From positions 725,363-789,362 of the forward strand of contig NZ_LT985808.1 of the NCBI RefSeq assembly GCF_900291465.1: 64,000 nucleotides of DNA, written 5' to 3'. Below the pieces are notes generated by a model. That model was not told the DNA's origin and did no database searches. It saw only the letters and a list, made by a program, of their open reading frames with translations. Below are positions 13,201-61,836 of the stretch, piece by piece. The number at the start of each line of letters is the position of its first letter. Positions within the stretch are counted from its first letter, which is position 1. The stretch comes from Bacteroides sp. Marseille-P3684. Lineage in GTDB: Bacteria; Bacteroidota; Bacteroidia; Bacteroidales; Bacteroidaceae. The translations under genes and the position numbers were made by a program.

Positions 13201-13324
13201 TGCGTCGCCCCTTCCGTTGTCCGGACGTTCTCCCACAGACACGGTTGCCCGGCGGACGGGGCATGGATGCCTGATTCGCTGCACACCCGCTCTTAATCTG
13301 ATACGCATAGGGACTTGACAGACT

Positions 13325-13500
13325 AAAGTATAATACTTAGATAGGCAAAGTATAATACTTAGGTGGTCTAAGTATAATACTTTGGTAGGCTAAGTATTAT
13401 ACTTTGGTATATCAAACCAATTAGTTTGCCACGTCAAACACTTGTGTTTGCCCGATGAAAGACTTGTGTCTGTCCGGTCAAACACAAATGTCCGGAGGGT
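13325..13500. repeat. Array of eight palindromic units at exact 22-bp period
   Basis: Units begin at 13325, 13347, 13369, 13391, 13413, 13435, 13457 and 13479. Each is a 16-base motif plus a 6-base linker. Units 1-2 are AAAGTATAATACTTAG, unit 3 TAAGTATAATACTTTG, unit 4 TAAGTATTATACTTTG, unit 5 CAAACCAATTAGTTTG, unit 6 CAAACACTTGTGTTTG. Units 7 and 8 keep the spacing but are degenerate. Base composition changes along the array while dyad symmetry is kept in units 1-6. No coding potential supports a protein here. Confidence 0.85.
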
Positions 13501-44905: not shown

Positions 44906-45055
44906 GTTTCCGGGACAATTGACAATGGATAATTGACAATTGACAATGTCCCTCCGGTGTGTGCCCCCGTCCGTCAGGCGGCGGATACAGGGGCGACCGG
45001 TCGGGCGTCCGTCCCCACATTGTCAGTTGTTCCTTGTCAATTGTCAATTGTAGAG
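44891..45055. repeat. Composite intergenic repeat (TTGACAATTG units around a CGCC-rich block)
   Basis: Units of TTGACAATTGACAA at 44891-44948 and inverted TTGTCAATTGTCAATTG near 45033-45050 surround a block whose reverse complement reads GGTCGCCCCTGTATCCGCCG (near 44970-45001). It belongs to the same family as the blocks at 55117-55260 and 57213-57432. The right end encodes the last residues and stop codon of the U32 gene. Confidence 0.7.
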
Positions 45056-46293
45056 ACCAGCTTGTAGAGCTTGTCGCTGGGGCGTATCTTCTCGGGCACC
45101 TTGAAGGAGACGTGTACCCCCTTGTCCACATGGTCCACCGAGCGGAGGTCTACGCGCGGGTCCTCCAGCTTCAGGAAGAGCGCTCCCGTGGTGGGGCCCG
45201 TGATGAGCAGGTCGTCCCCGACGTGAAGGTCCGACGCCTCCGTCAGGAACTCCGCCACGCCGAGCTGCGAGAAGTACTTCATGCCGCGGCCCACGTAGAC
45301 CTTCTTCTGCGTCGCCTCCGAACCGTAGCGCCGGCTCCACTCGCCCAGGCGTTGCCCCAGGTAGTAGCCGTCCCAGAAGCCGCGGTTGAAGACCGTCTTG
45401 AGGCGTTCCTCCCACGCAGCCACCTTCTCGGGCGTGAACGTCCCGTCGAGGCAGGCGGCGATGGCCTGCTTGTAGCACTCTGCGACGATGCGGACGTATT
45501 CGGGTCCGCGTGCCCGTCCCTCGATTTTGAACACACGGACGCCCGCCTCGATCATGCGGTCCATGAAGTGGATGGTCTTCAGGTCCTTGGGCGACATGAT
45601 GTACTTGTTCTCCACATCCAGCTCGATGTTGCTGTCCCGGTCGCGCACGGTGTAGGCGCGTCGGCATATCTGCGTGCACGCACCGCGGTTGGCGGACGAG
45701 TTCAGCTCGTGCAGGCTGAGGTAGCACTTGCCGGAGACTGCCATGCAGAGCGCGCCGTGACAGAACATCTCGATGCGCACCTGCTGTCCGCCGGGTCCGC
45801 AGATGTTCTCCTCGACGATGTGTCGGTGAATCTCCCGCACCTGCTCCAGGTTCAGCTCCCGGGCGAGGACGACGACGTCGGCAAAACGCGCGTAGAAGCG
45901 CAGCGCCTCGATGTTGGAGATGTTGAGCTGCGTCGACAGGTGCACCTCCTGACCGATGCGGTTGCAGTAGTCCATCACCGCCACGTCGGCAGCGATGACG
46001 GCGGAGATGCCTGCCTCGTGAGCCGCATCGCAGATGCGTCGCATGAGCTCCAGGTCCTCGTCGTAGATGATGGTATTGACGGTAAGGTAGCTCTTCATGC
46101 CGTGCGCGTCGCAGGTGGCGGCAATCTCCTTCAGGTCGTCCACGGTGAAGGTGTTGGCGGAGTGTGCCCGCATGTTGAGGTTCTCGATGCCGAAGTAGAT
46201 GGAATCGGCCTTTGCCTGTATGGCGGCGGCAAGCGACTCGCGCGAGCCCACCGGAGCCATAATCTCGAAGTCGTTTATGGAATAGGTTGTCAT
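45037..46293 (-). CDS. U32-family peptidase-like protein (TrhP/RlhA type)
   Basis: 418 aa from ATG 46293 (MTTYSINDFEIMAPVGSRES); the upstream frame is spacer. TIM-barrel N-terminal part begins EIMAPVGSRESLAAAIQAKA; the hallmark IEMFCHGALCMAVSGKCYLS near residue 170-190 and NRGACTQICRRAY carry cysteines likely to hold an Fe-S cluster. Family members hydroxylate tRNA (TrhP) or 23S rRNA (RlhA) rather than cleave peptides. The last residues (TIDN) and stop are encoded by an intergenic repeat, suggesting the 3' end was altered. A TACCTTTG box is at 46324-46331. Confidence 0.88.
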   Translation of the reverse strand: MTTYSINDFEIMAPVGSRESLAAAIQAKADSIYFGIENLNMRAHSANTFTVDDLKEIAATCDAHGMKSYLTVNTIIYDEDLELMRRICDAAHEAGISAVIAADVAVMDYCNRIGQEVHLSTQLNISNIEALRFYARFADVVVLARELNLEQVREIHRHIVEENICGPGGQQVRIEMFCHGALCMAVSGKCYLSLHELNSSANRGACTQICRRAYTVRDRDSNIELDVENKYIMSPKDLKTIHFMDRMIEAGVRVFKIEGRARGPEYVRIVAECYKQAIAACLDGTFTPEKVAAWEERLKTVFNRGFWDGYYLGQRLGEWSRRYGSEATQKKVYVGRGMKYFSQLGVAEFLTEASDLHVGDDLLITGPTTGALFLKLEDPRVDLRSVDHVDKGVHVSFKVPEKIRPSDKLYKLVSTIDN

Positions 46294-46331: not shown

Positions 46332-46384
46332 ACGATTTTCGGTTGAACCGTTGTGTTGCGGACGGGAGGTGGCGGTTGTGTCGT

Positions 46385-46921
46385 TTTGTCAAAACGTCAA
46401 ATGAATCGCCCGGGAAGGGGCTTCGTTGCGCCAAAATACGGATTGGTGACCGGGAATGAATTTTCAGGCGGTTTGCGAAATGCACCTTGACGGTTTTTCC
46501 GTCGGTTTCCTTTCCTTCTGCACGGTTTTTCTCTTCCTGCGTTCCCTTCCGTCGGTCTTTTCACACGGACGGACGCAATTTCACACATCGGGAATCGTGC
46601 CCCTTCGGGCTCTAAAAAATGGGGACAGGGGGCTGTTTTCGTACGGACGCGTCGGTACGACGGTGCGGACACGTCGGTACGGTGGTGCGGACGCGTCCGT
46701 ACGAAGCCAGTCACAGGTGCTTCGGACCGTGAAAATGGGTTCGGCGGATGCTTTTTTCGCGTTAGAAAAGGTTTATTTGTGTGAATGGACGTTACTTTTG
46801 GCGCATTCTGGCGTCCATGTCTTAAAATATTTAACGCGCGATTTTCTGGAAGGGAGAAATTTGCGAAAGTACGCGTCAGCTGAAAACGCCGAATCGGGAA
46901 AATGTGGTGTTAAAACCGGCG
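46385..46921 (+). repeat. 537-bp dispersed element, copy A
   Basis: Matches copy B (56673-57210) along its whole length with almost no net gaps. Both begin TTTGTCAAAA and end near GTTAAAACCG(G/A)CG. The 84-base core 46631-46714 is identical in both. It contains a 22-bp motif in three imperfect tandem copies (GACGCGTCGGTACGACGG type) enclosed by 16-bp inverted arms 46638-46653 and 46690-46705. Open frames through it are not conserved between copies, so it is probably non-coding. It fills most of the spacer before susC. A short TTGTCAACTATCAATTG repeat follows near 46981-47010. Confidence 0.8.
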
Positions 46922-47132
46922 AAACGGTGTCATTGTGACAAACGGACTTTGCGGAAAGGGTCCTCACACCGGACGGACGTTGTCACTTGTCAACTATCAA
47001 TTGTTAATTGGAGGGGCGGAACGAGGCTCCAAAACATGTTTTACAGCAGAGAATACCAGTTTTTCCATCATTTGTGTCAGTTTTTACACCGTCGGAACGG
47101 AGGTTCGGGCTTTCTTTGCGAGCAATCTAAAC

Positions 47133-50100
47133 ATGAAAAATATGAACTACCGAGGAAACACACACACGAGCGTCTCCCGTCACACGGGTAGATGTCTTTC
47201 GAAAAACACACTGTTTGCCTGTAGCCTCTCGTTGGGCATGATGATGGCGCCGCAGCTGCTCCTGGCGGCGGACGTGAATGCCGCAACCGATGTCCAGGCT
47301 GCCGTCACTCAACAGAACAGGTCGGTCACCGGACGGGTGGTCGACGAGAAGGGGGAACCGCTCATCGGCGTATCCATCCAGGTGAAGGGTACGAAGCTGG
47401 GAACGGTGACCGACTTCGACGGTAATTTCAAACTCAACGCACCTGCGGACGCCACACTTGTCATCTCCTACGTGGGCTTCCGTACGCAGGAAATCGAACT
47501 GAAAGGGCGCTCCGACTGCCAGGTCAGCATGGTCCCCGATGACCAGCTGCTCGACGAGGTGGTCGTGGTGGGCTATGGCGTGGTGAAGAAGTCCGACCTG
47601 ACAGGCTCCGTCGGGAGCGTGAAGTCGGACGTGATTTCGGCACGCGGCTCGACGTCGGTCATGGAGAGTCTCCAGGGACAGGTCGCCGGTGTGAACATCA
47701 CCCAGTCTTCGAGCCGCGCGGGCGACGGGTTCAGCATCCAGATTCGTGGTAAGAGCTCGCTCAACGACGGGGAGCCCCTCTACGTCATCGACGGGGTGGT
47801 ATGCGACAACATGGACTTCCTCAACCCGATGGACATCGAGAAGGTAGACGTCCTCAAGGATGCCTCCTCGACGGCTATCTACGGTTCACGCGCCACGAAC
47901 GGCGTGCTGATGATTACGACCAAGAAGGGCGCACCCGAGGAGTCGCGCGCGACCGTCAGCTATGACGGATACTACGGCGTGAAGCACACGACGAACATGC
48001 CCGACTTCATGGACGGTGACCAGTTCCTCAACTGGCGCTTCTACCGCTACTTCGAGTCGTCGATGGACAGCAGTACGGGTCTGACGACATGGAACATGAC
48101 GGACGCCAACTACCAGAACTTCTGGGGCGGGGGCAGCGAGGTCGTCAAGGACATGTACCGCAACAAGCGTTACACCGACTGGGTGGACCTGGTGACACGC
48201 ACCGGCTCGCAACAGAACCACTTCGTCAACATCACCGGCAACGCGCGCGACATCAGCTATCGCGTCGGCCTCGGCTACCAGAACGAGGAGGGCGTGCTCT
48301 ATGACGGCTACAGCCGCTGGAACCTGAAGGGAGCCGTCGACCATAAAATCTCCGACAAGGTGTCGGCAGGATTCTCCACCAACATGGCAACGTCGCTCAA
48401 GGAGAGCGGCAGCAACTACGCCGTCCTCTCGGGCTTCCGCATGACGCCGACGATGCCGGCGTACTACTGGGAGGGGGAGAATGCCGGCGAGCTCATCGTC
48501 CAGCCGGGCAAGGATGCCGCCATCTATCCCAACGGCGGCGGACCGACCTCGAACATCAACCCGCTGGTCGACCGCGAGAACTCCAAGGACAACACACGCT
48601 CCTATGACATCATGGCGAACCTCTACCTGCAGTACAGCCCCATCAAGGAGGTCATCCTGAAGACGACCTTCTCGCCCATGTACACGAAGAGCGAGCGGGG
48701 CACGTTCTACAACGGCAACACGCAGTACCGCTCGGGTAAGACGAACATGGCGGAGAAGTACAACGACCAGGTGTTCTCCTACACATGGGACACGCAGGCG
48801 AACTTCATCAAGTCGTTCGGCGACCACAACGTGAACGTGCTGGGCCTGTTCAGTGTCTACGACCAGCGGATGGAAGGCGACTACATGGGCGTGGTCGATA
48901 TGCCGTTCGACGTCGACTGGCACAACCTCGGCTCGGGAACGGTGCAGAGCCAGTCGAGCTACTATGAGCGCATCACGATGTTGTCTTACGTGGCGCGCGT
49001 CAACTACGACTACAAGGGCAAGTACATGGTGACCGTATCCTCGCGCTGGGATGGCAGCTCGAAGTTCAGCGAAGGGAACCGCTGGGGTATGTTCCCCTCG
49101 GCAGCCGTCGCCTGGCGCATGACCGAAGAGAAGTTCATGGAGCCGGTACGCGGCTGGCTGAGCAACCTGAAGCTCCGTGCCAGCTTCGGTGTGACGGGTA
49201 ACAACGCGGGCGTAGGTCCCTACGACACGCAGGCGCTCGCCAACGTGAAGTACTACTACAACTTCGGCAGCACGGTAGCCAACGGCTTCGGCTACACGAT
49301 GATCAACCCCGACCTCACGTGGGAACGGACGACGGAGTTCAACGTCGGCGTGGACTTCGGCTTCCTGGACAACCGCATCAACGGTTCGGTGGACCTGTAC
49401 AACAAGAACTCCAGCGACCTGCTGATGGAGATGCAGACGCCGCTCGAACTGGGCTCCTACTCGGGCGCCGTGGTGAGCAACGTCGGCAAGGTGAACAACA
49501 AGGGTATCGAGGTTCAGCTGAACACGAACAACGTCCGCACGAAGGACTGGAACTGGACGACGTCGTTCTCCTTTGCCCGCAACATCAACAGCATCCGGGA
49601 GCTGAATGGAGGCAAAGAGGACCTCGTGGGCAACAAGTGGTTCATCGGCAGCCCCATCGACGTGGTCTACGGCTACAAGTACACGGGCGTCTGTACGCGT
49701 GAAGAGGCACAGGCCATGGCGCAGGACCCGAACATAAAGACCAAGTTCTATGAGGGCGAGATGAAGATTTACGACAAGACCGGCGACGGCGTCATCGACG
49801 CGAACGACAAGATGATTCTCGGCCATTGCGCACCGACGTGGACGGGAAGCTTCGTCTCGAACCTGACCTACAGGAACTGGGACCTCAGCCTGAACATCTA
49901 CACGAGCCAGGGAGGCACGGTCTACTCTCCGTTCATGGGCGAGTTCACCGACTACTCGCAGCGCGGCATGCAGCGCCTGAACATCGACTACTATATCCCC
50001 GAAGGCGTACCGACGCTTGCCGAGGACGGCTCGATGACGACCACGACCTCGACGCACTACGGCAGCTGGCCCTTCCCGACGAACGGCGGCAACGGCAAGG

Positions 50101-50387
50101 GCGGCGGCTCCTACTGGCTGTCCGGTGCCAGCGAAGACCGCTCGCAGTACTTCGTGGACAACTCGTACGTGAAGATAAAGAACATCACCCTGGGCTACAC
50201 CTTCCCGACGTCGTGGCTCAAGAAGCTGCACATCTCCCACCTGCGTCTGTATGCCAACGTGGTCAATCCCGTAGTGTGGACGGACTACAAGGGCTTCGAC
50301 CCTGAGTGGGCGGACGCACAGGTCGGCGACGGTACCGGCGGTGTGAGCGCCACGAGCTGGCAGTTTGGTATTAACTTAAAATTCTAA
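47133..50387 (+). CDS. SusC/RagA-family TonB-dependent receptor (pectin-type locus)
   Basis: 1084 aa from ATG 47133 (MKNMNYRG...); the open frame upstream runs through the repeat and is not used. N-terminal export signal (LFACSLSLGMMMAPQLLLAA, about 25-44), carboxypeptidase-like domain (VTGRVVDEKGEPLIGVSIQV, about 63-140), TonB-box-like EVVVVGYGV, plug (QIRGKSSLNDGEPLYVIDGV; VLKDASSTAIYGSRATNG), barrel to the end (WQFGINLKF). It should import oligosaccharides with the SusD partner, which begins 7 bases after it. The downstream GH43-GH28 enzyme points to a pectin-derived ligand (inference). Confidence 0.93.
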   Translation: MKNMNYRGNTHTSVSRHTGRCLSKNTLFACSLSLGMMMAPQLLLAADVNAATDVQAAVTQQNRSVTGRVVDEKGEPLIGVSIQVKGTKLGTVTDFDGNFKLNAPADATLVISYVGFRTQEIELKGRSDCQVSMVPDDQLLDEVVVVGYGVVKKSDLTGSVGSVKSDVISARGSTSVMESLQGQVAGVNITQSSSRAGDGFSIQIRGKSSLNDGEPLYVIDGVVCDNMDFLNPMDIEKVDVLKDASSTAIYGSRATNGVLMITTKKGAPEESRATVSYDGYYGVKHTTNMPDFMDGDQFLNWRFYRYFESSMDSSTGLTTWNMTDANYQNFWGGGSEVVKDMYRNKRYTDWVDLVTRTGSQQNHFVNITGNARDISYRVGLGYQNEEGVLYDGYSRWNLKGAVDHKISDKVSAGFSTNMATSLKESGSNYAVLSGFRMTPTMPAYYWEGENAGELIVQPGKDAAIYPNGGGPTSNINPLVDRENSKDNTRSYDIMANLYLQYSPIKEVILKTTFSPMYTKSERGTFYNGNTQYRSGKTNMAEKYNDQVFSYTWDTQANFIKSFGDHNVNVLGLFSVYDQRMEGDYMGVVDMPFDVDWHNLGSGTVQSQSSYYERITMLSYVARVNYDYKGKYMVTVSSRWDGSSKFSEGNRWGMFPSAAVAWRMTEEKFMEPVRGWLSNLKLRASFGVTGNNAGVGPYDTQALANVKYYYNFGSTVANGFGYTMINPDLTWERTTEFNVGVDFGFLDNRINGSVDLYNKNSSDLLMEMQTPLELGSYSGAVVSNVGKVNNKGIEVQLNTNNVRTKDWNWTTSFSFARNINSIRELNGGKEDLVGNKWFIGSPIDVVYGYKYTGVCTREEAQAMAQDPNIKTKFYEGEMKIYDKTGDGVIDANDKMILGHCAPTWTGSFVSNLTYRNWDLSLNIYTSQGGTVYSPFMGEFTDYSQRGMQRLNIDYYIPEGVPTLAEDGSMTTTTSTHYGSWPFPTNGGNGKGGGSYWLSGASEDRSQYFVDNSYVKIKNITLGYTFPTSWLKKLHISHLRLYANVVNPVVWTDYKGFDPEWADAQVGDGTGGVSATSWQFGINLKF

Positions 50388-50394
50388 TGCAATC

Positions 50395-52110
50395 ATGAAA
50401 CACCTATACATTTTCGCACTTGCGGCCTCCCTGGCGTTTACCGCCTGCTCGGACTTTTTGGAGCAAGACAACAAATCGAACGTCCCCACCGAGGAGTTCT
50501 ACAACACGGCGAACGGCTTCGCCAGCCTCACGAACAGCGCCTACTCCTCGCTCCGCACCATCTACAGCGCACAGCCCCAGCTCTTCGTGGCGGGCACGGA
50601 CCTCTATGCCGACGGCAAGAGCCAGGGCGTGGTCATGGGACAGTACACCTTCACGACCGATGAAGGCATCATCAAGGACTTCTACGACCGTTGCTACAAG
50701 GGCATCCAGCTCGCCAACAGTGTCATCGCGTACGGCGAGACGACCGAGGACAACGCCCAGCGCCTGCAGTACATCGACGAGGCGCGTTATCTACGGGCAT
50801 GGTGGTACTTCCAGCTCGTGCAGCAGTTCGGTCCGGTGGCGCTGAACACCGAGATGTTCGAGTCCGCCGTGATGAGCCACGAGCGCACCGACCTCGCCAC
50901 GGTCTACCAGTTCATCATTGATGAGTTTACCTACCTGGCGTCCGCAGACTCGCATCTGCTGGAGCGCGCCTCTTCCGGCGTCGGTCGTGCCAATAAGCGG
51001 GCAGCCGCCTTCTATGCCGCCAAGGCATACCTGACACGTGGCTGGCTCGACGGCACCGACTACGAGGCACAGGAGGCATCCATCGCCCAGGCGTCGGACT
51101 TCGACAACGCCGTGACCTATGCCCGGCAGGCCATCAACGGGGAGCTTCCCGCGCTCTCCATCGAGGAGGCGTTCGACGTCAATAACGAAGAGAACGACGA
51201 ACTGTTCTGGAGCGTGCAGTACAGCAGCTCCGCCGTGGAGAACCCCGTTGACGACGGGTCCTACCAGCAGGCACAGTTCGGCGCCTACCAGGGTGGCTCC
51301 GAGAAGCCACGCAACAAGGCGATTGACGGCAACTTCGCACCGTCCCTCCGTCTCCAGCAGATGTACACGCGCGGAGACGGCCGACTGGAGCAGACCTTCA
51401 TGCTGGAGTTCCATGAGGCATACTTCGACTGGTACACCAACCCGACGTCGAAGATACTCTACTACTATGCTCCCGCCTGGGCGACCGACGAGGACATCGC
51501 TGCCTGGCGTGCCGACGACCCGAACGGCATCAAGACCGAGACCATAGTCAGCAAGACCGTCGCCGAGGGCGGCATCGCACCGTCCAACGGTCAGCCGGCT
51601 TCCTACAAGGACCGGCGGACGCAGGACTTCGGCAACGCCGCCATCAAGAAGTTTGACGACTACACCGAGACCTCCATTGCCAACCGGAGCACCACGTGCA
51701 GCATGCACGACGTTGTCCTGGCACGCCTGGGCGAAGCCTACCTGATCGCCGCTGAGGCTTACTACAAGAAGGGCGACATGCAGCAGGCTGCGGAGATGAT
51801 CAACAACCTGCGTCAGCGTCCCGGAACCATCAAGAGTGGCTACGAGACAGCCATGCACGTCGACGCTGCCGACATTACCATCGACTTCATCCTCGACGAG
51901 CGCGCCCGCGAGCTGGCAGGCGAGTACGTCCGCTGGACCGACCTGAAGCGCACGCACAAGCTCATCGAGTACGTCACCGAGTACAACGAGGACGGTGTCG
52001 AGCTCAGTGCGCTGACGGGACCCGACGGCAAGTACAAGATCCTGCGCCCCATCCCGCAGGCCGCCATCGACCTCAACCAGGCTCACGTGGAGCAGAACCC
52101 CGGCTATTAA
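50395..52110 (+). CDS. SusD/RagB-family glycan-binding lipoprotein
   Basis: 571 aa. Lipobox AFTAC (Cys near residue 18), SDFLEQDNKSNVPTEEFYNT start, helical TPR-like body with ARYLRAWWYFQLVQQFGPVA near 130, and C-terminal ARLGEAYLIAAEAYYKKGDM, FILDERARELAGEYVRWTDL, IPQAAIDLNQAHVEQNPGY, the standard end of the family. It forms the surface lid of the SusC encoded 7 bases upstream. Co-transcribed; a hairpin lies in the 126-base gap to the enzyme gene. Confidence 0.94.
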   Translation: MKHLYIFALAASLAFTACSDFLEQDNKSNVPTEEFYNTANGFASLTNSAYSSLRTIYSAQPQLFVAGTDLYADGKSQGVVMGQYTFTTDEGIIKDFYDRCYKGIQLANSVIAYGETTEDNAQRLQYIDEARYLRAWWYFQLVQQFGPVALNTEMFESAVMSHERTDLATVYQFIIDEFTYLASADSHLLERASSGVGRANKRAAAFYAAKAYLTRGWLDGTDYEAQEASIAQASDFDNAVTYARQAINGELPALSIEEAFDVNNEENDELFWSVQYSSSAVENPVDDGSYQQAQFGAYQGGSEKPRNKAIDGNFAPSLRLQQMYTRGDGRLEQTFMLEFHEAYFDWYTNPTSKILYYYAPAWATDEDIAAWRADDPNGIKTETIVSKTVAEGGIAPSNGQPASYKDRRTQDFGNAAIKKFDDYTETSIANRSTTCSMHDVVLARLGEAYLIAAEAYYKKGDMQQAAEMINNLRQRPGTIKSGYETAMHVDAADITIDFILDERARELAGEYVRWTDLKRTHKLIEYVTEYNEDGVELSALTGPDGKYKILRPIPQAAIDLNQAHVEQNPGY

Positions 52111-52156
52111 GCCTCCCGCCTGGCAGACTGAACATGCAGTAGACAAGCTCTCTCCT

Positions 52157-52192
52157 GCCTCCTCCATTCTCCTCGGGGAGAGTGGGGGAGGC
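52157..52192 (+). other. Intra-operon hairpin between susD and the GH43-GH28 gene
   Basis: Arms 52157-52172 (GCCTCCTCCATTCTCC) and 52177-52192 (GGAGAGTGGGGGAGGC) pair at 14 Watson-Crick positions plus two possible G-U, with a 4-base loop. No T tract follows, so it may stabilise or process the mRNA rather than end it. Confidence 0.5.
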
Positions 52193-52236
52193 TTCTGCCG
52201 TCTCTGCGATCCCATTACTCCTTATTCCCGACTTTT

Positions 52237-55107
52237 ATGCTGAAACAACTCCTCTCTCTCTTTCTGGGCATGACGGCGCTGTCCGTCCCCCTTGCCGCCC
52301 AACAGACGTCGCCCGACACCTGGGGCGACCAGGGCAATGGCACATACATCAACCCCATCCTCAACGCCGACTACTCCGACCCCGACGTCATCCGTGTGGG
52401 CGAGAAGTACTACATGGTCGCCTCCGACTTCCACTTCCTGGGCATGCAGGTGCTCGTCTCGGATGACATGGTCAACTGGCGCCTCCTCTCCCAGGTCTAC
52501 AGCCGCTTCGACTTCCCGGGCTGGGACACGAACGAACGCTATGCCGGCGGCTCGTGGGCACCTGCCATCCGCTACCACGACGGGAAGTTCTGGATTTTCT
52601 TCTGCACACCCGACGAGGGACTCTTCATGACCAACGCCACCGACCCCGCCGGGCCGTGGAGCCCCCTGACGAACGTCTGCCACGTGCCCAAGTGGGAAGA
52701 CCCGTGCCCCTTCTGGGACGATGACGGACAGGCGTACCTCGGACGCAGCATCCACGGCGCAGGCCCCATCATCATCTACCGCATGAGCCCCGACGGCACC
52801 CGCCTGCTCGACGAGGGACGGACCGTCTACCGCGGACCGGTGGCGGAGGGCACGAAGATTCACAAGCGCAACGGGTACTACTACCTCAGCATCCCCGAAG
52901 GGGGCGTCTCCAAGGGGTGGCAGACCGTCCTGCGCTCGAAGAGCATCTACGGCCCCTATGAGAAGCGCGTGGTGCTCGAACGCGGCACGACCGACATCAA
53001 CGGACCGCACCAGGGAGCGATGGTCGACACGCCGGAGGGCGAATGGTTCTTCTTCCACTTCCAGCAGTACAACCCGCTGGGACGCGTCGTCCACCTGCAA
53101 CCCATGCACTGGGAGGATGACTGGCCCGTGGTCGGCGTGGACATCGACCGCAACGGTGTCGGCGAACCGGTCGCATCGTGGACCAAGCCGCGGGGAACCC
53201 GTGACGTGCCCGTCGAAGTGCCCCGCACCGATGACGACTTTAGCGGACCGTCGCTCGGATTGCAGTGGCAGTTCAACCACAACCCCGTGGACGATGCCTG
53301 GTCGCTGACCGAACGTCCCGGCACGCTCACCCTCCACGCCCTGCAGGCAGACGACTTCCGCCGGGCACGCAATACGCTCACCCAGAAGACTATGGGCTAC
53401 CGCGGCACGGCGACCGTACGCATGGACTTTGACGACCTGGCGGACGGACAGCGCTGCGGCATCGCCTGCATCGGCAAGGCAAACAGCCTGCTGGGCATCC
53501 GCCGCGACGGAGCGGACACCCGCCTCTACCTCGAACACGGGGGCACGGAGGCTGCCTCCTTCCCCGTCAGCGGGACGACCGTCTACCTCCGTCTGCAGGC
53601 GGACGCACGGGCGAACCGCTACACCCTGCTGTACAGTACCGACAACCGCAACTTCACCGCCGCGGGCGACGCCTTCCCGATGGAGTTCGGCAACTGGAAG
53701 GGGGTGCGCGTGGGGTTGTACTGCTACAACGTGCGGCAGGCAGCGGGCAGTGCCTCCTTTGACGACTTTACCTACCGCCACGACGGACCGGCACGCCGTC
53801 AGCCGATGACACCGCAGGAGGCCATTGTCAGCCGCATCGCCACCACCTCCTTCCCCGACCGCACCTTCACCGTCCGCCTGCCTGAAAAGGCTGACGAGAG
53901 CCTCCGGGTCATCCAGCAGGCCATCGACTCCTGCTCGTGGCTCGGCGGAGGGACCGTCCGTGTCACGGCCGGACACTACCCCCTCAACGGACCGCTGCGC
54001 CTGAAGAGCGACGTCAACCTCCACCTCGACGAGGGCGCCTATCTGCAGTTCAGCGGACGGGCGGACGACTTCCTCCCCGTGGTGCTGACCCGCTGGGAAG
54101 GCACGGAGATGTACGGACACTCCCCCATGATTTATGCCTACCATGCCAACAACATTGCCATCACGGGCAGCGGCACCATCGACGCCCAGGGCGGCAAGGA
54201 GTTCGCCGCATGGAGCCGGATTGAGGCACCGGACCGCGACCGCCTGCGGGAGATGGGCGACAAGCTCGTGCCCGTCCAGGAACGCGTCTTCGGCAAGGGC
54301 ACCGTCCTGCGTCCGTCGTGCATCCAGCCCCTGGGCTGCTCGCGCGTGCTCATCGAGGGCGTGACCATCAAGGATTCCCCCTTCTGGACCATCCACCCGG
54401 TGCTCTGTGACAATGTCATCGTCCGCGGGGTGACCATCGACAGCCACTTCCCCAACAACGACGGCTGCGACCCGGAGGGAACGTCGAACGTGCTCATCGA
54501 GCGTTGCACCTTTCGCACCGGCGACGACGCCATCGCCATCAAGTCAGGACGCGACACCGACGGCCGCTCCATCGGACGTCCCTCGCGGAACATCGTCATC
54601 CGCGACTGCATCTTCCACTCCGAGTGCAACGGACTGTGCATCGGCAGCGAGATGTCCGGCGGTGCCTCCGATGTCTATATGAGCAACATCGAGATAGGCA
54701 CGGTCAAGAACGCCCTCTACTTCAAGTCCAACCGCGACCGGGGCGGCTACATCCGCCGCGTCTTTGTCGACAGCATCACGGTGGAGCGCGCCAAGGGCGC
54801 CATACTCCGCTTTGAGACCAACTACTTCGGCTTCCGCGGGGGGAACTACCAGGCACTCTATGAGGACTTCCACATCAGCCACGTCCAGGCTGAGAAGGCG
54901 GACCACTACGCCGTGTTCATGGACGGTAACGAGGTGTACCCGATACGCAACGTCCGCATCCACGACTTCCACGTCGGCGAGGCACCGCACGCCCACTACC
55001 TGAAGAACACCGAGGGCGTCCGCTTCACCTCGTCGTCGGTCAACGGCACCCCGCTGCCCGAACAACCGGAGGAAAGCCCCGAACGGGTCACGCTGGAGGT
55101 CTACTGA
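52237..55107 (+). CDS. Secreted GH43-GH28 fusion enzyme (pectin-active, predicted)
   Basis: 956 aa with signal peptide ending near LAAQQ (residue 23). Residues about 35-320 form a GH43 propeller: general base Asp48 (ADYSDPDV), pKa-modulating Asp154 (EDPCPFWDDDG), general acid Glu203 (VAEGTKIHKR). About 330-515 is a beta-sandwich module as in GH43 xylosidases. About 555-935 is a GH28 beta-helix with aspartates in PNNDGCD (Asp742) and TGDDAIAIKSG (Asp763, Asp764), and the KSNRDRGG motif. GH43 enzymes release xylose or arabinose and GH28 hydrolyses galacturonans, so a substituted galacturonan such as xylogalacturonan is plausible (inference). Probably periplasmic or surface; third gene of the locus. 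Confidence 0.9.
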   Translation: MLKQLLSLFLGMTALSVPLAAQQTSPDTWGDQGNGTYINPILNADYSDPDVIRVGEKYYMVASDFHFLGMQVLVSDDMVNWRLLSQVYSRFDFPGWDTNERYAGGSWAPAIRYHDGKFWIFFCTPDEGLFMTNATDPAGPWSPLTNVCHVPKWEDPCPFWDDDGQAYLGRSIHGAGPIIIYRMSPDGTRLLDEGRTVYRGPVAEGTKIHKRNGYYYLSIPEGGVSKGWQTVLRSKSIYGPYEKRVVLERGTTDINGPHQGAMVDTPEGEWFFFHFQQYNPLGRVVHLQPMHWEDDWPVVGVDIDRNGVGEPVASWTKPRGTRDVPVEVPRTDDDFSGPSLGLQWQFNHNPVDDAWSLTERPGTLTLHALQADDFRRARNTLTQKTMGYRGTATVRMDFDDLADGQRCGIACIGKANSLLGIRRDGADTRLYLEHGGTEAASFPVSGTTVYLRLQADARANRYTLLYSTDNRNFTAAGDAFPMEFGNWKGVRVGLYCYNVRQAAGSASFDDFTYRHDGPARRQPMTPQEAIVSRIATTSFPDRTFTVRLPEKADESLRVIQQAIDSCSWLGGGTVRVTAGHYPLNGPLRLKSDVNLHLDEGAYLQFSGRADDFLPVVLTRWEGTEMYGHSPMIYAYHANNIAITGSGTIDAQGGKEFAAWSRIEAPDRDRLREMGDKLVPVQERVFGKGTVLRPSCIQPLGCSRVLIEGVTIKDSPFWTIHPVLCDNVIVRGVTIDSHFPNNDGCDPEGTSNVLIERCTFRTGDDAIAIKSGRDTDGRSIGRPSRNIVIRDCIFHSECNGLCIGSEMSGGASDVYMSNIEIGTVKNALYFKSNRDRGGYIRRVFVDSITVERAKGAILRFETNYFGFRGGNYQALYEDFHISHVQAEKADHYAVFMDGNEVYPIRNVRIHDFHVGEAPHAHYLKNTEGVRFTSSSVNGTPLPEQPEESPERVTLEVY

Positions 55108-55116
55108 ACGTGCGTT

Positions 55117-55265
55117 AATTGACAATTGACAATGGACAATTGACAATGTCCCTTCGTTGTGACCATGAATCCATCAGGCGGCCCCTACATTCACCGCCTG
55201 ACAGGGTGGGGGACACACCGAAGGGTCATTGTCCATTGCGCATTGTCAATTGTCAATTATCTTTG
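55117..55265 (+). repeat. Composite repeat carrying the MATE promoter
   Basis: TTGACAATTGACAATGG units at 55117-55148, a CCCCTACATTCACCGCCTGA block near 55180, then inverted TTGTCAATTGTCAATT ending in TATCTTTG (55258-55265), an exact -7 box. ATTG at 55235-55238 is 19 bases upstream of it. The promoter lies 27 bases before ATG 55292 and is largely made of repeat sequence. Confidence 0.65.
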
Positions 55266-55291
55266 CACCGCATTTCCACGAGATAACACCT

Positions 55292-56623
55292 ATGAAGACA
55301 GCTTACACCAACAAAGAGATTCTGAAGATAGCCTATCCCTGCCTGATCAGCCTGGTCATGGAGCAGCTCATCGGAATGACCGACACCGCGTTCCTGGGGC
55401 GGGTCGGCGAAGTCGAACTGGGCGCATCGGCGATTGCCAGCGTCTACTACCTCGTCATCTTCATGATGGGCTTCGGCTTCAGTGCGGGCGCACAAATCAT
55501 CATGGCACGCCGTAACGGCGAACAGAACTACCGGGAGGTCGGTGCCATCTTTTACCACGGACTCTACTTCCTCCTCGCCTTTGCCGTGCTCGCCTTCGGG
55601 CTGACCAAGGCGCTTTCGCCCCTGCTGCTGGAGCGCATCATCGACGACCCCGACATCTGTGCGGCAGCCGAGAGCTACATCGACTGGCGTATCTTCGGCT
55701 TCTTCTTCTCCTTCGCCGCGGCGATGTTCCGCGCATTCTACATCGGCACCACCCAGACGAAGACCCTGACGCTGAACTCCGTCGTCATGGTCCTGTCGAA
55801 CGTGGTGTTCAACTACATCCTCGTCTTCGGCAAGCTGGGCTTCCCCGCCCTGGGCATCGCCGGAGCCGCCATCGGCTCGTCGCTCTGCGAGCTGGTGTCG
55901 CTGGTCTTCTTCATCGTCTACACCACACGGCGCATCGACTGTGCCAAGTACGGGCTTGCCCACCGCGTGCGTTTCCGGATGCGTACGCTGCGGAGCATCT
56001 TCACCGTCTCGTTCTGGACCATGATACAGAGCTTCCTGACGCTGTCCACGTGGTTCCTCTTCTTCCTCTTCGTCGAGCACCTGGGCAAGGAGCCGCTTGC
56101 CGTGTCGAACGTCGTGCGCAGCGTGTCAGGATTCTTCTACATGATTGTCGCCGCCTTCGCCGCCACGTGCGGGTCGCTGGTGAGCAACCTCATCGGTGCC
56201 GGCAAGACCGACGCCGTCCTGCCCACCATCCGTCAGCACATCCGCCTGTGCTACCTCTTCGTGCTCGGGCTGGGTGTCCTCGTGGCAGTCTTTCCCACCG
56301 CGGTCATCAGCATCTACACCAACATCCCCGAGCTTCAGGCGGCGACTGTCCCCTCGCTGCTCGTCCTGTGCACGGCGTACGTCTTCCACGTCCCCGGCAT
56401 CATCTATTTCCAGTCCATCTCCGGTACGGGCAACACGCGGATGGCGTTCCTGCTGGAGGTCATCGTCCAGGTGGTCTATGTCGCCTACTGTGTGGTCCTC
56501 ATCAACTGGCTGCGCGCGGACGTCGCCGTCTGCTGGACGACCGAGCACATCTACGGACTGGCACTGCTCGTCTTCTGCTCCATCTACATCCACCGCGGCG
56601 GATGGCGCGGCAAGGCGGTCTGA
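55292..56623 (+). CDS. MATE-family efflux transporter
   Basis: 443 aa from ATG 55292 (MKTAYTNKEILKIAYPCLIS); the frame to 55229 lies in the repeat. About twelve membrane segments in two halves, with the MATE pattern MEQLIGMTDTAFLGRVGEVE near 25 and its second-half counterpart SVSGFFYMIVAAFAATCGSL near 290, and GAGKTDAV. It exports organic compounds using Na+ or H+ gradients across the inner membrane. It sits between the pectin-type enzyme gene and the regulator; whether it belongs functionally to that locus is unclear, because it has its own promoter. Confidence 0.92.
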   Translation: MKTAYTNKEILKIAYPCLISLVMEQLIGMTDTAFLGRVGEVELGASAIASVYYLVIFMMGFGFSAGAQIIMARRNGEQNYREVGAIFYHGLYFLLAFAVLAFGLTKALSPLLLERIIDDPDICAAAESYIDWRIFGFFFSFAAAMFRAFYIGTTQTKTLTLNSVVMVLSNVVFNYILVFGKLGFPALGIAGAAIGSSLCELVSLVFFIVYTTRRIDCAKYGLAHRVRFRMRTLRSIFTVSFWTMIQSFLTLSTWFLFFLFVEHLGKEPLAVSNVVRSVSGFFYMIVAAFAATCGSLVSNLIGAGKTDAVLPTIRQHIRLCYLFVLGLGVLVAVFPTAVISIYTNIPELQAATVPSLLVLCTAYVFHVPGIIYFQSISGTGNTRMAFLLEVIVQVVYVAYCVVLINWLRADVAVCWTTEHIYGLALLVFCSIYIHRGGWRGKAV

Positions 56624-56672
56624 CCCCGTCTGTGTCGGGCGGACGGCGCCTGCCTTCCGACGCGGCTGTCAA

Positions 56673-57210
56673 TTTGTCAAAATGTCAAACGAATCGCCCG
56701 AGAAGGGGCTTCCCTGCACCAAAATACGGATTGGTGACCGGGAAGGCCCTTCTCGGGCGATTTGCCAAATGCACCCTGACGCCTTTTCTGTCGTTTTCCT
56801 GTCCTTCTGCTCGCTGTTCCTTGTCCTGCATTCCCTTCTGTCGGTCTATTCACACGGACGGACGCAATTTCACACTCACGGAATCGTGCCCCTCCGGTCG
56901 CTAAAAAGTGGAGACAGGTGGCTGTTTTCGTACGGACGCGTCGGTACGACGGTGCGGACACGTCGGTACGGTGGTGCGGACGCGTCCGTACGAAGCCAGT
57001 CACCGGTGCTTTCGTCGGCGAAAATGGGTTCGTCGGATGCCTTTTTTGCGTTAGAAACGGTATAATTATGTGAATAACGGTTTATTTCGATGCGTTCTGA
57101 AGGACGTATCTTAAAATATTTAACGCACGATTTTCTAATTGGGACAAAATTGCGAAAATGTGCGTTACCTGAAAACGCCGAATCGGGAAAATGTGATGTT
57201 AAAACCGACG
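56673..57210 (+). repeat. 537-bp dispersed element, copy B
   Basis: Same orientation as copy A (46385-46921), offset by 10,289 bases. The 84-base core is 56920-57003, with inverted arms 56927-56942 and 56979-56994. Near its left end this copy has a long hairpin (arms 56690-56713 and 56741-56764, 22 of 24 paired: GAATCGCCCGAGAAGGG-type) that is decayed in copy A. It lies between the MATE gene and the hybrid regulator, so the two copies bracket susC, susD, the enzyme and the MATE gene. Confidence 0.8.
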
Positions 57211-57468: not shown

Positions 57469-60400
57469 ATGAGAATCCGCATATACCTGGGTCTGTACAT
57501 TCTTTTCACCCTTTTCACCCTGTCCGGGCACAGCCGGGCGGGAGCGTTGCCGCAATATGCCGTCCGAGCCTACGGTCCGAAGGACGGGCTGGGGCACGGC
57601 TTCATGCACGACATCCTCCAGGACCGCGAGGGCGTGATGTGGTTTGCCACATGGAACGGGCTGAGCTGCTTCGACGGCTACACCTTCCGCAACTTCAAGG
57701 CAGGCGCCGATGGCACACATCCCTTCACCAGCGGACGGGTGCTCTCCATCACCGAGGACTCCGTCGGCTGCCTCTGGCTCGTGTGCTACGACAACTCCGT
57801 CTACCGCTTCGACCCGCGCGACGAGCGTGTCCTCCCCATTCCGCTGACAGGCGGACGCCGCACCGCGCAGACTGCCGTCGTCCGTCCCCTTGTCGGCGGT
57901 GTGGTCTGGGTCCTGGGCAACGGCACCGCTGTCCGTGCCTCTTACGATGCCGACAGCCAGCAGCTTGCCCTGCGTCCGCCCGTCAACCTCGCGTCGTGTG
58001 GCGAGCTGACGGACGTCCACCGCGACGACCGCGGGCAGGAGTGGATACTCTCCTCCCGGGGGCTCTTCCGCTTTGACCCGCTGACGGAGATGCTGCGTCC
58101 CGTCCGGTTGCCCGGTGCCCCGGAGACTGCCCTGCGGACGCTGATGGAAGACGGACGCCGCCTGCTCGTTGCCGGCGACAGCGGCCGCGTGTTCGTCTGC
58201 GACAAGGCGACCCGCCGGCTCACCCTCCACCGTCTGCCCACCCCTGCCGCCGTGACCGACATCGCCCGGTGCGCGGACGGCAGCCTGCTCTTTTCCACCG
58301 ACGGCGACGGGCTGTTCCTCGCCACCCCTTCCGACACCCTCCACTTCTCGACACGCACCCCCGGCGGACCTGCGGACGACCATATATATAAGGTGTACAT
58401 CGACCGTCACGGACTCGCCTGGCTGGAGTATGCCTCCCTCGGCATCGGGCTGTTCGACCCATCGCACCGCCGCTTCACCCACTTCCTCATGCGCGACGAG
58501 CACGGGCGTCCGCTTGCCACCGAGACGGGCGTACTCCTGGCGGAAGACGCCAACGGCATCCTCTGGGTCCACCCCAAGGGTGGCGGGCTGGCATGGTATG
58601 ACCGTCCGTCGAACACCCTCGTGCCCTTCAACCCTGCCCAGCGGACGCATGAGTGGCGCTCGAACGACCGCTGTTTCTCCATCTGCACCGACCGTCAGGG
58701 GAACCTCTGGATGAGTACCCTCCTGGGCGGACTGACGAAGATTACCTTCCAGCACGCCTTCTTCCACCTCCTGCCCCTCGATGCCGACGACCCCGAGTCG
58801 CCCGGGAACGAGGTGCGCGCCCTCCTGGTCGACCGTCAGGGACGCACCTGGGCAGGCACGCGCAACAACGAGCTGCTCGTGCTCGACCCCTACAAGCATC
58901 TGCTGGGCAGGCTGGACCCGTCCGCCGGACGCATCGTCTCCCGTGAGAGCGCAGCCACGCGCTTTGCCAGGGTTTACGCCGTGATGCAGGACCGCGACGG
59001 CGACATCTGGGTGTCGACCAAGGGGCAGGGCATCTACCGCCTCCGTCCGTCGGGCGAAGGACGCTTCCGGACGGAGCACTACACCCACTCGTCGGTCGAC
59101 CCCTACAGCCTGAGTTGCGACGAGGTCTACCACCTGTTCGAGGACAGCCGCGGGCGCGTCTGGGTGGCTACCTACGGCGGCGGGCTCAACCTCGTACGCT
59201 TCCAGTCCGACGGCAGCTTGCGCTTCCTCCATGCCCGCAACGAGCTGAAGAGCTTCCCCCTGCGCCACTACTACAAGCTGCGCCACGTCAGCGAGGACAG
59301 TCGCGGACGCATCTGGGTGTCGTCCACCGTCGGTGCGCTCGCCTGCGACGGCAGTTTCAGCCGTCCGTCGGACATCCGCTGGACCCGCTGCCTCGACCAC
59401 TGCGACGTGCACATGGTGGACTGCCTGCCCGGGGGCGGGGTCTTCGCCGCTACCTTCGGACAGGGACTGCAGGAGCTGACCTCCTTCGGCGGGGGCAAGG
59501 CGTCGTTCCGTGCCTACACCCACGCCGACGGGCTGATAGCCGACATCATCTACGCCATCCGTCCGGACGACCGGGGCAACCTCTGGCTCGCCACCGAGAA
59601 GGGACTCATCAAGTACCGTCCTGCCGACGCGACCTTCGAGCACTATGAGAACGACTTCACCGCCTTCAACATCCAGTTCAGCGAGGGTGCGGGCACCTTT
59701 GCCGGGACACAGATACAGCTGGGCACGACGAAGGGCATCTTCTACTTCAACCCCGCGGAAGTGTTCAAGAACACCTTCACCCCCACCATCCGCCTGTCCG
59801 CCCTCGTGACGGACCACCGCACCGTCTCCCCCGGCGACAGCACGGGCATCCTGCGGCACACGCTCAACCACACGTCGCTCGTGTGCATCCCCCACGGCAT
59901 CCACACCGTCGGCATCCGCTACGCCGCCCTTGACATGTCGAACACCGAGGACATCCAGTACGCCTACCGGCTCGACGGCTTCGACCGCGAGTACCGCTAC
60001 GTCGGGGAGAGCCGCGAGGCGACCTACACCAACCTGCCGCCGGGGCACTACACCTTCCGCGTGAAGTCCACGAACAGCGAGGGCGTGTGGCGCGACAACG
60101 AGAAGACGCTGGCAGTCGAGGTGCTGCCTTCCTTCTGGCAGACACCCTGGGCATGGCTGCTCTACACGGCGGGAGTCGTCGGGCTGTTCGTGCTGGTGCT
60201 CCGTCTCTACCGCGCTTTCTACCGGCTGAAGGACAAGGCGGAGCGTGAGGAGCTGATGGCACAGTTCAAGCTGAAGTTCTTCACCGACGTGTCCCACGAG
60301 CTGCGCACCCCGCTGACGCTCATCTCCGGTCCGCTGGAGTACATGCTCGCCCGTTCGCCGCTGACCGACGATGTACGCGGCCGCCTCCTGACGGTGAAGC

Positions 60401-61836
60401 ACAACAGCGACCGTCTGCTGAGGCTCGTCAACCAGATACTCGACTTCAACAAGCTCCAGGACAACCGCCTGAAGCTCTACGTGCGCCGGCTCGACCTCTC
60501 CTCGCTGCTGGAGCGGACGGTCGCCGACTTCCGCCTGCTCGCCGAGAAGCGCGACATCCGTCTGAGCTACGGACATCCCTCCGGCGACGTGTGGGTGTGG
60601 TGCGACGCCGAGAAGATGGAACAGGTCGTGGGCAACCTGCTGTCCAATGCCTTCAAGTATACCCCTGAGCATCGTGCCATCCGCGTGGAGCTGACAACCG
60701 ACGGAGGCGCCGCCGTCATCCGTGTCACCGACGAGGGGGTGGGCATCAGCCCGCAGAAGCTGCGGACCATCTTCGGACGCTTCGAGACCTCGCCCGGTCC
60801 CGACTTCACGGGCATCCCGGGCACCGGCATCGGGCTGGCGCTCACCAAGGAGCTGGTGGAGCTTCACGGCGGCACCATCGGCGTGCGGAGCCGTCCCGGC
60901 GAAGGGAGCTGCTTCACCGTGACGCTTCCTCCGGGCAGGGACCACTTCCCGGAGGACACGGAGTTTCTGCTGACGGACGCGACGGCGCCCTCCGTCCCGA
61001 CGTCCGTGCCGGCGTGTCCGCAGCCTGCCGCCCCTGAATCCGGCGAGGAGACCGCCTCCAGCAGCATGCTCATCGTGGAGGACAACGACGAGCTGCGCCG
61101 CTTCATCGCCGAGGTGTTCAGCCCCGACTTCCGCGTCGTGGAAGCCCGTGACGGCGAAGAAGGCCTGGCGTCGGCACGTACCCTCATGCCCGACATCATC
61201 CTGACGGACATCATGATGCCGCGCCGTGACGGCCTGTCGCTCCTGCGCGAGCTGCGCGCCGACATCGGCACAAGCCACATCCCCGTCGTCCTGCTCACCG
61301 CAAAGGCAGACTCCGACAACCGCCTCCGGGGGCTGGAGACAGGAGCCGACGCCTACATTGTCAAGCCTTTCGGCATCTCCTACCTGCGTGCCCAGGTGGA
61401 CAACCTGCTGGAGCGGCGCAAACGTCTGCAAGCCTACTACGGCAACCCCCACCGCACCCCCGTGCCCGACGAGCCGGAGGCGGACCGTCCGTCGGACACC
61501 CTCACCGCGGGCGACCGGGAGTTCCTGGAGAAGCTCGACGCCCTCATCGACCGCGAGCTGGACAATCCCGACCTCTCCGTGGAGCAGCTCGTGGAGCACT
61601 TCAGCTTCGGCAGGACCGTCTTCTTCCGCAAGCTCAAGGCACTCACCGGCAAGTCGCCCATCCTCTACATCAAGGAGGCGCGCATGACCCGTGCCGCCCG
61701 CCTGCTGAAGGAGCGCCGCAACAGCATCGCCGAGATAGCCTACGCCGTCGGGTTCAGCGACCCGCACTACTTCAGCAAGAGCTTCAAGCAGTACTACGGC
61801 GTCTCCCCGACCGACTACGCCGGCGACCCGGACTGA
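57469..61836 (+). CDS. Hybrid two-component system sensor/regulator
   Basis: 1455 aa from ATG 57469 (MRIRIYLGLYILFTLFTLSG); the longer frame lies in repeats. After a signal segment, residues about 30-800 carry two-propeller Reg_prop repeats (YGPKDGLGHGFMHDILQDRE; many GxLW/GxIWV units). Y_Y_Y domain about 810-890, membrane segment about 893-915, histidine kinase with HisKA SHELRTPLTLISG near 940, ATPase N-box NLLSNAFKYTP near 1056 and GTGIGLAL, receiver domain from about 1199 with Asp near 1247 (TDIMMP), and AraC-type DNA-binding domain about 1357-1447. It should sense an oligosaccharide in the periplasm and activate the adjacent susCD-enzyme genes. Confidence 0.95.
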   Translation: MRIRIYLGLYILFTLFTLSGHSRAGALPQYAVRAYGPKDGLGHGFMHDILQDREGVMWFATWNGLSCFDGYTFRNFKAGADGTHPFTSGRVLSITEDSVGCLWLVCYDNSVYRFDPRDERVLPIPLTGGRRTAQTAVVRPLVGGVVWVLGNGTAVRASYDADSQQLALRPPVNLASCGELTDVHRDDRGQEWILSSRGLFRFDPLTEMLRPVRLPGAPETALRTLMEDGRRLLVAGDSGRVFVCDKATRRLTLHRLPTPAAVTDIARCADGSLLFSTDGDGLFLATPSDTLHFSTRTPGGPADDHIYKVYIDRHGLAWLEYASLGIGLFDPSHRRFTHFLMRDEHGRPLATETGVLLAEDANGILWVHPKGGGLAWYDRPSNTLVPFNPAQRTHEWRSNDRCFSICTDRQGNLWMSTLLGGLTKITFQHAFFHLLPLDADDPESPGNEVRALLVDRQGRTWAGTRNNELLVLDPYKHLLGRLDPSAGRIVSRESAATRFARVYAVMQDRDGDIWVSTKGQGIYRLRPSGEGRFRTEHYTHSSVDPYSLSCDEVYHLFEDSRGRVWVATYGGGLNLVRFQSDGSLRFLHARNELKSFPLRHYYKLRHVSEDSRGRIWVSSTVGALACDGSFSRPSDIRWTRCLDHCDVHMVDCLPGGGVFAATFGQGLQELTSFGGGKASFRAYTHADGLIADIIYAIRPDDRGNLWLATEKGLIKYRPADATFEHYENDFTAFNIQFSEGAGTFAGTQIQLGTTKGIFYFNPAEVFKNTFTPTIRLSALVTDHRTVSPGDSTGILRHTLNHTSLVCIPHGIHTVGIRYAALDMSNTEDIQYAYRLDGFDREYRYVGESREATYTNLPPGHYTFRVKSTNSEGVWRDNEKTLAVEVLPSFWQTPWAWLLYTAGVVGLFVLVLRLYRAFYRLKDKAEREELMAQFKLKFFTDVSHELRTPLTLISGPLEYMLARSPLTDDVRGRLLTVKHNSDRLLRLVNQILDFNKLQDNRLKLYVRRLDLSSLLERTVADFRLLAEKRDIRLSYGHPSGDVWVWCDAEKMEQVVGNLLSNAFKYTPEHRAIRVELTTDGGAAVIRVTDEGVGISPQKLRTIFGRFETSPGPDFTGIPGTGIGLALTKELVELHGGTIGVRSRPGEGSCFTVTLPPGRDHFPEDTEFLLTDATAPSVPTSVPACPQPAAPESGEETASSSMLIVEDNDELRRFIAEVFSPDFRVVEARDGEEGLASARTLMPDIILTDIMMPRRDGLSLLRELRADIGTSHIPVVLLTAKADSDNRLRGLETGADAYIVKPFGISYLRAQVDNLLERRKRLQAYYGNPHRTPVPDEPEADRPSDTLTAGDREFLEKLDALIDRELDNPDLSVEQLVEHFSFGRTVFFRKLKALTGKSPILYIKEARMTRAARLLKERRNSIAEIAYAVGFSDPHYFSKSFKQYYGVSPTDYAGDPD

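Follow-up and report, generated by a model that had tools for sequence, protein, structure and literature searches.

The window analysed here, a stretch of 64,000 nucleotides from Bacteroides sp. Marseille-P3684 (C1:725363-789362 of the 3.71-Mb genome), carries two copies of an intergenic element of about 560 bp, called class C, inside which three near-palindromes of 18 bp stand in a row with their starts spaced exactly 22 bp. Rows of this kind, or arrays, were found at 117 loci in the 2.26 Mb (61% of the chromosome) covered by the chromosome-wide work; they fall into classes of unrelated sequence that have the same pitch, and they keep a distance from each other. The interpretation that we rank first, although we give it somewhat less than an even chance, is that the arrays are protein-docking sites on a chassis like that of BrickBuilt and other miniature inverted-repeat transposable elements (MITEs), acting in cis over about 10 kb and most likely anchoring or delimiting chromosomal domains. 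The parts of the two copies are the following, in positions of the window.

46379..46940, plus strand: class C element copy 1, about 560 bp, with a left hairpin end, a polypyrimidine stretch, the array and a right end; the right edge is taken from the alignment of copies.
46396..46487, plus strand: left-end hairpin region, 92 bp as folded, common to class A elements elsewhere.
46641..46702, no strand assigned: class C array of copy 1, three 18-bp dyads at 22-bp pitch (46641-46658, 46663-46680, 46685-46702).
56667..57210, plus strand: class C element copy 2, the last ~21 right-end positions being unmatched.
56930..56991, no strand assigned: class C array of copy 2, three 18-bp dyads at 22-bp pitch (56930-56947, 56952-56969, 56974-56991).

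Aligned over 46379-46921 (543 bp) and 56667-57210 (544 bp), the copies are identical in 460 of 544 columns (84.6%) with one gap, which confirms the repeat reported in an earlier note on this DNA; the identical 84-bp core given there (46631-46714 and 56920-57003) was found again, flanked by a mismatch at each end. The three units of that core are also present, as 18-bp near-palindromes (GTACGGACGCGTCGGTAC, GTGCGGACACGTCGGTAC and GTGCGGACGCGTCCGTAC) at an exact pitch of 22 bp rather than as 22-bp units, with starts at 46641, 46663 and 46685 in copy 1 and at 56930, 56952 and 56974 in copy 2. The enclosing inverted arms of 16 bp were not borne out, the outer arms being exact over 14 bp (TTCGTACGGACGCG / CGCGTCCGTACGAA).

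The repetition of this element is far beyond chance, since its own genome yielded 70 matches (both strands counted, some being two-strand matches of one palindromic core), of which 23, both window copies included, are nearly full length (~560 bp) with 78-100% identity. The 18-bp site pattern, allowing up to two mismatches, occurs in the genome 80 times forward and 83 times reverse, against 0 and 1 for the reversed control. When 23 copies were aligned, 50 of the 66 array columns were nearly invariant (at least 0.96) and the chassis differed by about 21% between copies. The remaining 16 columns form blocks that switch between two forms at units 1 and 3, and do so independently (Fisher p=0.30): the combination at units 1 and 3 is alt/alt in 5 copies, alt/pal in 13, pal/alt in 3 and pal/pal in 2. 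The two window copies are the ones with pal/pal, and for this reason they share exactly 84 bp; the identity that had been proposed as a sign of selection or gene conversion is therefore real, yet its exactness is partly a coincidence.

Fourteen class C arrays are bare, having 3-5 units at the exact pitch and, outside the array, no match to the 560-bp element. Ten of them lie at 304-618 kb, three represent a tandem and a nearby duplication, and two have 134 bp in common; a degenerate site at 393361, with a 26-bp step, was excluded from this count. As nothing of the chassis is matched around these 14, the array outlives what movement would need, and the persistence of arrays both here and within chassis diverged by ~21% suggests that they are retained in their own right.

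Two further array classes, A and B, unrelated in sequence and alike in their 22-bp pitch, emerged from repeat-finding in this chromosome. The class A site has arms CAAAC..GTTTG flanking a variable 6-bp centre and the class B site reads CTAAGTAT-N-ATACTTAG; across the classes the dyads are about 18, 16 or 17 bp long, with spacers. The window itself holds an example of class B with class A-type units beside it.

13324..13406, no strand assigned: class B array, four 17-bp dyads of the CTAAGTAT-N-ATACTTAG type at 22-bp pitch; its start is C1:738686.
13413..13450, no strand assigned: two class A-type units, CAAACCAATTAGTTTG and CAAACACTTGTGTTTG, 22 bp apart, immediately after the class B array.

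A scan blind to sequence, which asked for at least three quasi-palindromes at a fixed pitch, returned 73 arrays at pitch 22, 0-1 at each pitch of 18-21 and 23-26, and none in three shuffles. The 46 and 26 arrays returned at pitches 33 and 44 are taken to be other readings of the pitch-22 arrays. Three unrelated dyad sequences with one exact pitch point to a geometric constraint, which is as expected of dimeric proteins and probably reflects their stacking on one face of the DNA. Each array would then be a docking platform for one or more dimeric DNA-binding proteins, mostly with 3-4 dyad sites, and the dyads, exactly two helical turns apart, would place the bound dimers on one face of the helix. 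The earlier suggestion of a protein-binding array gains support.

Some class B and other arrays have features of their own. At C1:1443814-1444189 a class B array has 17 nearly identical units at 22-bp pitch, as if recently expanded, and the one at 589536 has seven. Two kinds of flank frame class B arrays (e.g. C1:366006): additional class A-type units, or an inverted pair of the type CAAGCCGGGGATAGA / TCTATCCCCGGCTTG, which is perhaps another chassis or class. A possible further array class, GAGATGAGCATCTC at 22-bp pitch, was seen at C1:3446789.

The arrays avoid each other. In the main spacing set (C1:1-1,393,000; 78 loci of all classes, loci within 700 bp being merged) the mean spacing is 17.8 kb with a coefficient of variation (CV) of 0.53, compared with 0.98 for zone-matched random intergenic gaps, and none of 5000 simulations gave a value as low. 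Only one of the 77 spacings is below 5 kb, where 18.0 were expected, and three are below 9 kb (30.0 expected); the shortest are 3.8, 6.2 and 6.3 kb, and a pile-up starts from 9.2 kb upward. The avoidance was also found under four other nulls and in a region outside the first test, beyond 1.393 Mb, where 0 of 17 spacings are below 5 kb (4.3 expected, P=0.003) and three are below 9 kb (7.6 expected, P=0.007). Avoidance was not seen for two further intergenic repeat families of this genome (9 observed and 9.0 expected; 2 and 2.6). Under a local null, counted within 5 kb, the avoidance holds between class C arrays (0 against 10.0 expected, P=0.002), for C against A (0 against 4.7, P=0.006) and for A against C (0 against 3.0, P=0.03). 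From such a minimum distance we would expect the arrays to act in cis over about 9-10 kb, through either chromosome domains or transposon target immunity.

The class of an array follows the composition of its region. Coding GC content at third codon positions (GC3) varies markedly along the analysed part, from ~0.4 to 0.88 in 12-kb windows with its peak at 280-1040 kb, and regional GC differences likewise exist in the relative G003. Class C arrays stand at GC3 of at least 0.78 in 39 of 41 scored windows and class A arrays below 0.78 in 44 of 46; the difference persists when the 280-1040 kb zone (p=3e-7) and its flanks (p=1e-4) are taken separately. Beyond 1.44 Mb only four scored windows reach 0.78, and composition and position are inseparable there as reasons for the absence of class C. 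The GC skew and the strands of the ribosomal RNA genes place the replication origin inside or near the class C zone and the terminus near 2.3 Mb, and dnaA lies at C1:2947344, far from the origin so indicated. A terminus (matS-like) role was rejected, because it is the origin, not the terminus, that falls where class C arrays lie, and because GC3 accounts for that zone no less well than position. Sites of the parS type were rejected too, the single parS-like site of the genome (C1:463671) being away from any array, and no cluster of three or more DnaA boxes was found in 1.86 Mb scanned with five exact box forms.

Placement is intergenic: 86 of 87 arrays, found at a looser scan threshold, lie outside predicted open reading frames (ORFs), and an array occupies half (78 of 155) of the gaps between genes that are 500-1500 bp long. 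Classes A and C occur in tandem, convergent and divergent gaps alike (convergent and divergent, respectively: A 16 and 13, C 13 and 10), and class B favours convergent gaps (12 of 24, with one divergent). This mixed orientation of the genes beside A and C arrays we count in favour of domain anchoring.

Profiles of the left and right parts of class C, run over the analysed sequence, showed that its left end (~115-150 bp, the long hairpin) also stands on a fixed side of class A arrays, and that the right end is matched in five class A elements. When fifty class A elements were aligned from the left end, conservation was seen at that end, gave way to a variable stretch, returned in a further stretch ahead of the array, and was partial in the right part beyond it. 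With these common ends, A and C appear to be two versions of a single ~565-bp element that differ in array cassette and middle. Around class B arrays, neither the left nor the right end was matched within 350 bp. On the mechanism that we favour, arrays would have spread into intergenic DNA on this BrickBuilt- or MITE-like chassis, the left hairpin end being common and the right end partly so, and would afterwards have been retained as cis-acting chromosomal sites, one per roughly 10-20 kb, and the class of array, GC-rich C or AT-rich A, would correspond to the base composition of its domain. To this extent the earlier proposal of a non-autonomous mobile element also finds backing, as regards a chassis of mobile type.

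The strongest competitor, to which we give about one chance in three, is that the whole is a species-specific, MITE-like non-autonomous mobile element that has nearly filled the intergenic space, with arrays binding a transposase or accessory protein, a ~9-kb spacing due to target immunity, and A and C as subfamilies. The ends common to A and C fit such an element, as do its presence in one genome only and spacings with an apparent floor of ~9.2 kb (three fall below it) and a tail above, the mean being 17.8 kb; the leader-array-tail layout is that of BrickBuilt (PMC4596501). However, a consistent target site duplication was not found among the 15 of 24 copies with both ends matched, where the best excess over mismatched pairs was 2.4 copies at 2 bp, a null that old copies could produce by having lost the duplication. 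The element ends read TTTGTCAAAAYG.., and a short, imperfect resemblance of one end to the other, of the TGTCAAAAYGWCA kind and judged by eye, may represent terminal inverted repeats. No transposase gene flanked by element ends was seen in the analysed part, and three array-less left ends revealed no parent; one of them adjoins a DDE transposase gene that seems to have inserted into a copy. The idea that class C spreads locally was rejected as weak (Mantel r=0.21, P=0.04 on leaving out one divergent copy; with that copy included, r=0.03 and P=0.27). No element was found beside the MATE genes of two relatives (G003, G008) or the U32 genes of two (G003, G010), which were looked at as possible empty sites; synteny breaks there, and no precise junction was seen. 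Also against a mobile element of this kind, the bare arrays have no ends, keep their units and obey the joint spacing, and class B, with no chassis end matched nearby, takes part in that spacing as well, though B against A and C alone gives P=0.066. Mobility also leaves the link between class and GC3 unexplained.

The system seems limited to one species. With one mismatch allowed, the 18-bp site is found 58 times forward and 57 times reverse in its own genome; of 200 other genomes in a family sample four have it, once or twice each, and none of the 12 same-genus genomes among those 200 does. A DNA search with 562 bp found nothing in 14 same-genus genomes and a single 26-bp match among 46 others, the ten best candidates per genome being scored. 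Of class A pairs this genome has 204, and none was counted in 392 other genomes of an order sample; class A triples number 183 against 0 in 14 same-genus genomes, and their reversed control scored 34 in this genome, probably since an array read across its spacers matches the control as well. Class B pairs number 126 against 0 in the 14 same-genus genomes, where the reversed control gave 6 in one relative and 1 in another. Over 394 kb from the relative G003 the scan blind to sequence found one array at 22 bp and 0-2 at seven other pitches. Many of the relatives are incomplete, fragmented assemblies, prone to losing repeats. No match was found in phages or plasmids, in viral contigs (exact patterns) or in genome contigs (exact class C patterns), collections from which records of this species may be absent. 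The earlier note had taken a lack of copies in related genomes as a sign against the element; none was found in the 14 relatives, yet copies abound in the genome itself, so the element is species-limited and not an artefact. G003 has intergenic repeats of its own (CCTCCTTTCCG..CGGAAAGGAAGG motifs; loci L162-L166, L178 and L179), unrelated to the arrays.

Several results weigh against the anchoring of domains. Absence from 14 same-genus genomes is odd for an essential, long-standing system of chromosome organisation, and no binding protein was identified for the arrays. Transposon target immunity would likewise give a minimum spacing, and immunity of the Mu/Tn7 type acts over kilobases. The avoidance is softer beyond 1.393 Mb, where 3 of 17 spacings are 5.9-7.6 kb; under the local null it is not significant for A-A (0 against 3.2, P=0.18) or B-B (0 against 0.6, P=0.74) and only suggestive for B against A and C (1 against 3.6 within 5 kb, P=0.066), and the CV of single classes is not below the null (A 1.22 against 1.17, C 1.14 against 1.18). 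The class C array, its switching blocks included, is conserved at 0.921, no better than the 0.923 of the best-conserved 66-bp stretch elsewhere in the element (median 0.872). Finally, the longest stop-free frames average 134 codons against 83 in shuffled sequence, and the plus strand of class C folds more stably in 24 of 24 copies (p=1e-7), its left end in 21 of 24 (p=5e-5). What the data show directly is the pitch, the classes, the common ends, the intergenic position, the avoidance, the relation to GC3 and the lack of arrays in the relatives searched; protein binding, the one-face geometry, a mobile origin and a domain function are inferred from these. Even so, we place domain anchoring first and a mobile element with target immunity second.

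It is improbable that the arrays are operators of ordinary transcription regulators controlling their neighbours, such as SusC-like and regulator genes. Rows of 3-4 dyad sites do resemble multi-site operators, and copy 1 precedes a SusC-like gene and copy 2 a hybrid regulator; however, arrays occur between convergent genes, not only between divergent ones, an avoidance over 9 kb is unexpected of a regulon, and the neighbours of class C differ in kind. Ten neighbour proteins at five loci (of the 86 neighbours of 43 arrays) comprised eight with unlike Pfam families (ABC-2 transporter, SusE/F, TonB receptor, M20 peptidase, MgtC, AMP-binding enzyme, GH28 and Asp/Glu racemase) and two without any. 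The genes next to the window copies are these.

45037..46293, minus strand: U32 peptidase (PF01136), left of copy 1; start codon approximate, scanned as ORF 45037-46485.
47133..50387, plus strand: SusC-like TonB-dependent receptor (PF13715/PF07715), right of copy 1; start approximate, scanned as ORF 46935-50387.
55229..56623, plus strand: MATE transporter (PF01554), left of copy 2.
57471..61836, plus strand: hybrid two-component regulator (PF07494/PF00072/PF12833), right of copy 2; start approximate, scanned as ORF 57313-61836.

We consider just as unlikely a multi-copy structured non-coding RNA of ~560 nt, with arrays as rows of hairpins and selection acting on the RNA, and rejected it as the principal explanation on folding and pair counts, despite the strand bias of class C. 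The left end does fold as a long hairpin, and 44 G-U against 5 A-C cells were counted on the plus strand. Nevertheless the class C copies are related, so that 24 of 24 are not 24 independent observations, and class A favours neither strand (30 of 50, p=0.13; for the left end, 20 of 49, p=0.15). There is little covariation (term -2.06 kcal/mol, compensatory change in 5 of 97 pairs), and the 5' and 3' arm types do not vary together (Fisher p=0.30). No Rfam family matched at gathering score, and up to an E of 1 there was only a meaningless match with a plant-miRNA name (E 0.22); the structured RNA envisaged earlier is thus poorly supported.

A coding role was rejected, as the differences between copies had no codon periodicity in any of four stretches (p 0.11-0.77). 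The earlier statement that open frames are not preserved stands, with some reservation, given stop-free frames that exceed those in shuffled sequence. The minus-strand frame that starts in the core has 105 and 108 aa in the window copies; among the 19 copies with the anchor it stops at 19 to 122 aa in 18, eight of which have 105-108 aa, and meets no stop in one.

In layout the nearest known system is BrickBuilt, a MITE of Porphyromonas gingivalis with 23-nt direct repeats without spacers, from 1 to ~23 per locus, at 19 loci in one strain; in the available text its terminal inverted repeats (TIRs) resemble those of IS5-type elements and stem-loops are predicted, with no description of dyad sites (PMC4596501). 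According to the same text it shares with the present element a leader, a short-pitch array and a tail, a location that is always intergenic, a record from one species, and copies that lack leader, tail or both (PMC4596501). The arrays described here differ in having dyads at 22-bp pitch in place of 23-nt spacerless direct repeats, mostly 3-4 units, 117 loci, three site sequences, avoidance and a class tied to GC3, and neither a matching insertion sequence nor TIRs like GAGACCTTTGCA were found, the ends reading as given above. Beyond BrickBuilt, the open-access literature offered no recognised description of this array system.

Repetitive extragenic palindromes (REP) and bacterial interspersed mosaic elements (BIMEs) are high in copy number, extragenic and built of palindromic units in regularly spaced composite repeats able to bind proteins (PMC2817692). 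Our arrays are likewise high-copy, extragenic, palindromic and regularly spaced, and differ as loop-less dyads at a fixed 22 bp that are not of REP size. The units of BIMEs are of ~35-40 nt in alternating orientation, and we know of no ~9-kb avoidance between them. The sites of matS/MatP, Noc, SlmA and parS/ParB are palindromic, scattered over chromosomal zones and read by dimeric proteins; they are usually single and shared with relatives, unlike the arrays in three sequence classes, in one genome only and with no known protein, found here. Transposases of the Mu/Tn7 type bind ~22-bp sites near the ends that are not palindromic, and their immunity would space copies over kilobases; here neither a transposase nor a consistent target duplication was found.

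A separate intergenic repeat family has runs of TTGACAATTG/TTGTCAATTG, at 44884-45050, 55112-55259 and 57202-57432 of the window and at many other loci, often accompanied by GGGCGACC-n-GACCGGTCGCCC palindromes. These runs often directly adjoin the elements, yet without mutual avoidance. Among the paralogue clusters of the analysed part, named from one member each, are 19 ECF sigma factors, 10 ISL3 transposases and 7 group II intron proteins; no small repressor-like family was seen among them, judged by eye only.

The earlier interpretation is partly supported; the other array classes, the common chassis, the mutual avoidance and the link with GC3 lay beyond its view. With 117 loci in 61% of the chromosome, extrapolation gives ~190 arrays in all, and it is conceivable, though doubtful, that they form one docking system with one pitch and three site codes, anchoring domains labelled by class and matched in GC, that arose from a mobile element within one species. 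The palindrome arrays look like a previously undescribed way to divide or mark a bacterial chromosome, or else like an unusually orderly mobile element. If they are domain anchors, they would be species-specific, sequence-coded cis sites for bacterial chromosome domains, directly testable in their sites and spacing. If they are mobile, the spacing would be a natural record of insertion immunity over ~9 kb, and A and C would show that cassettes can differ while the ends stay the same.

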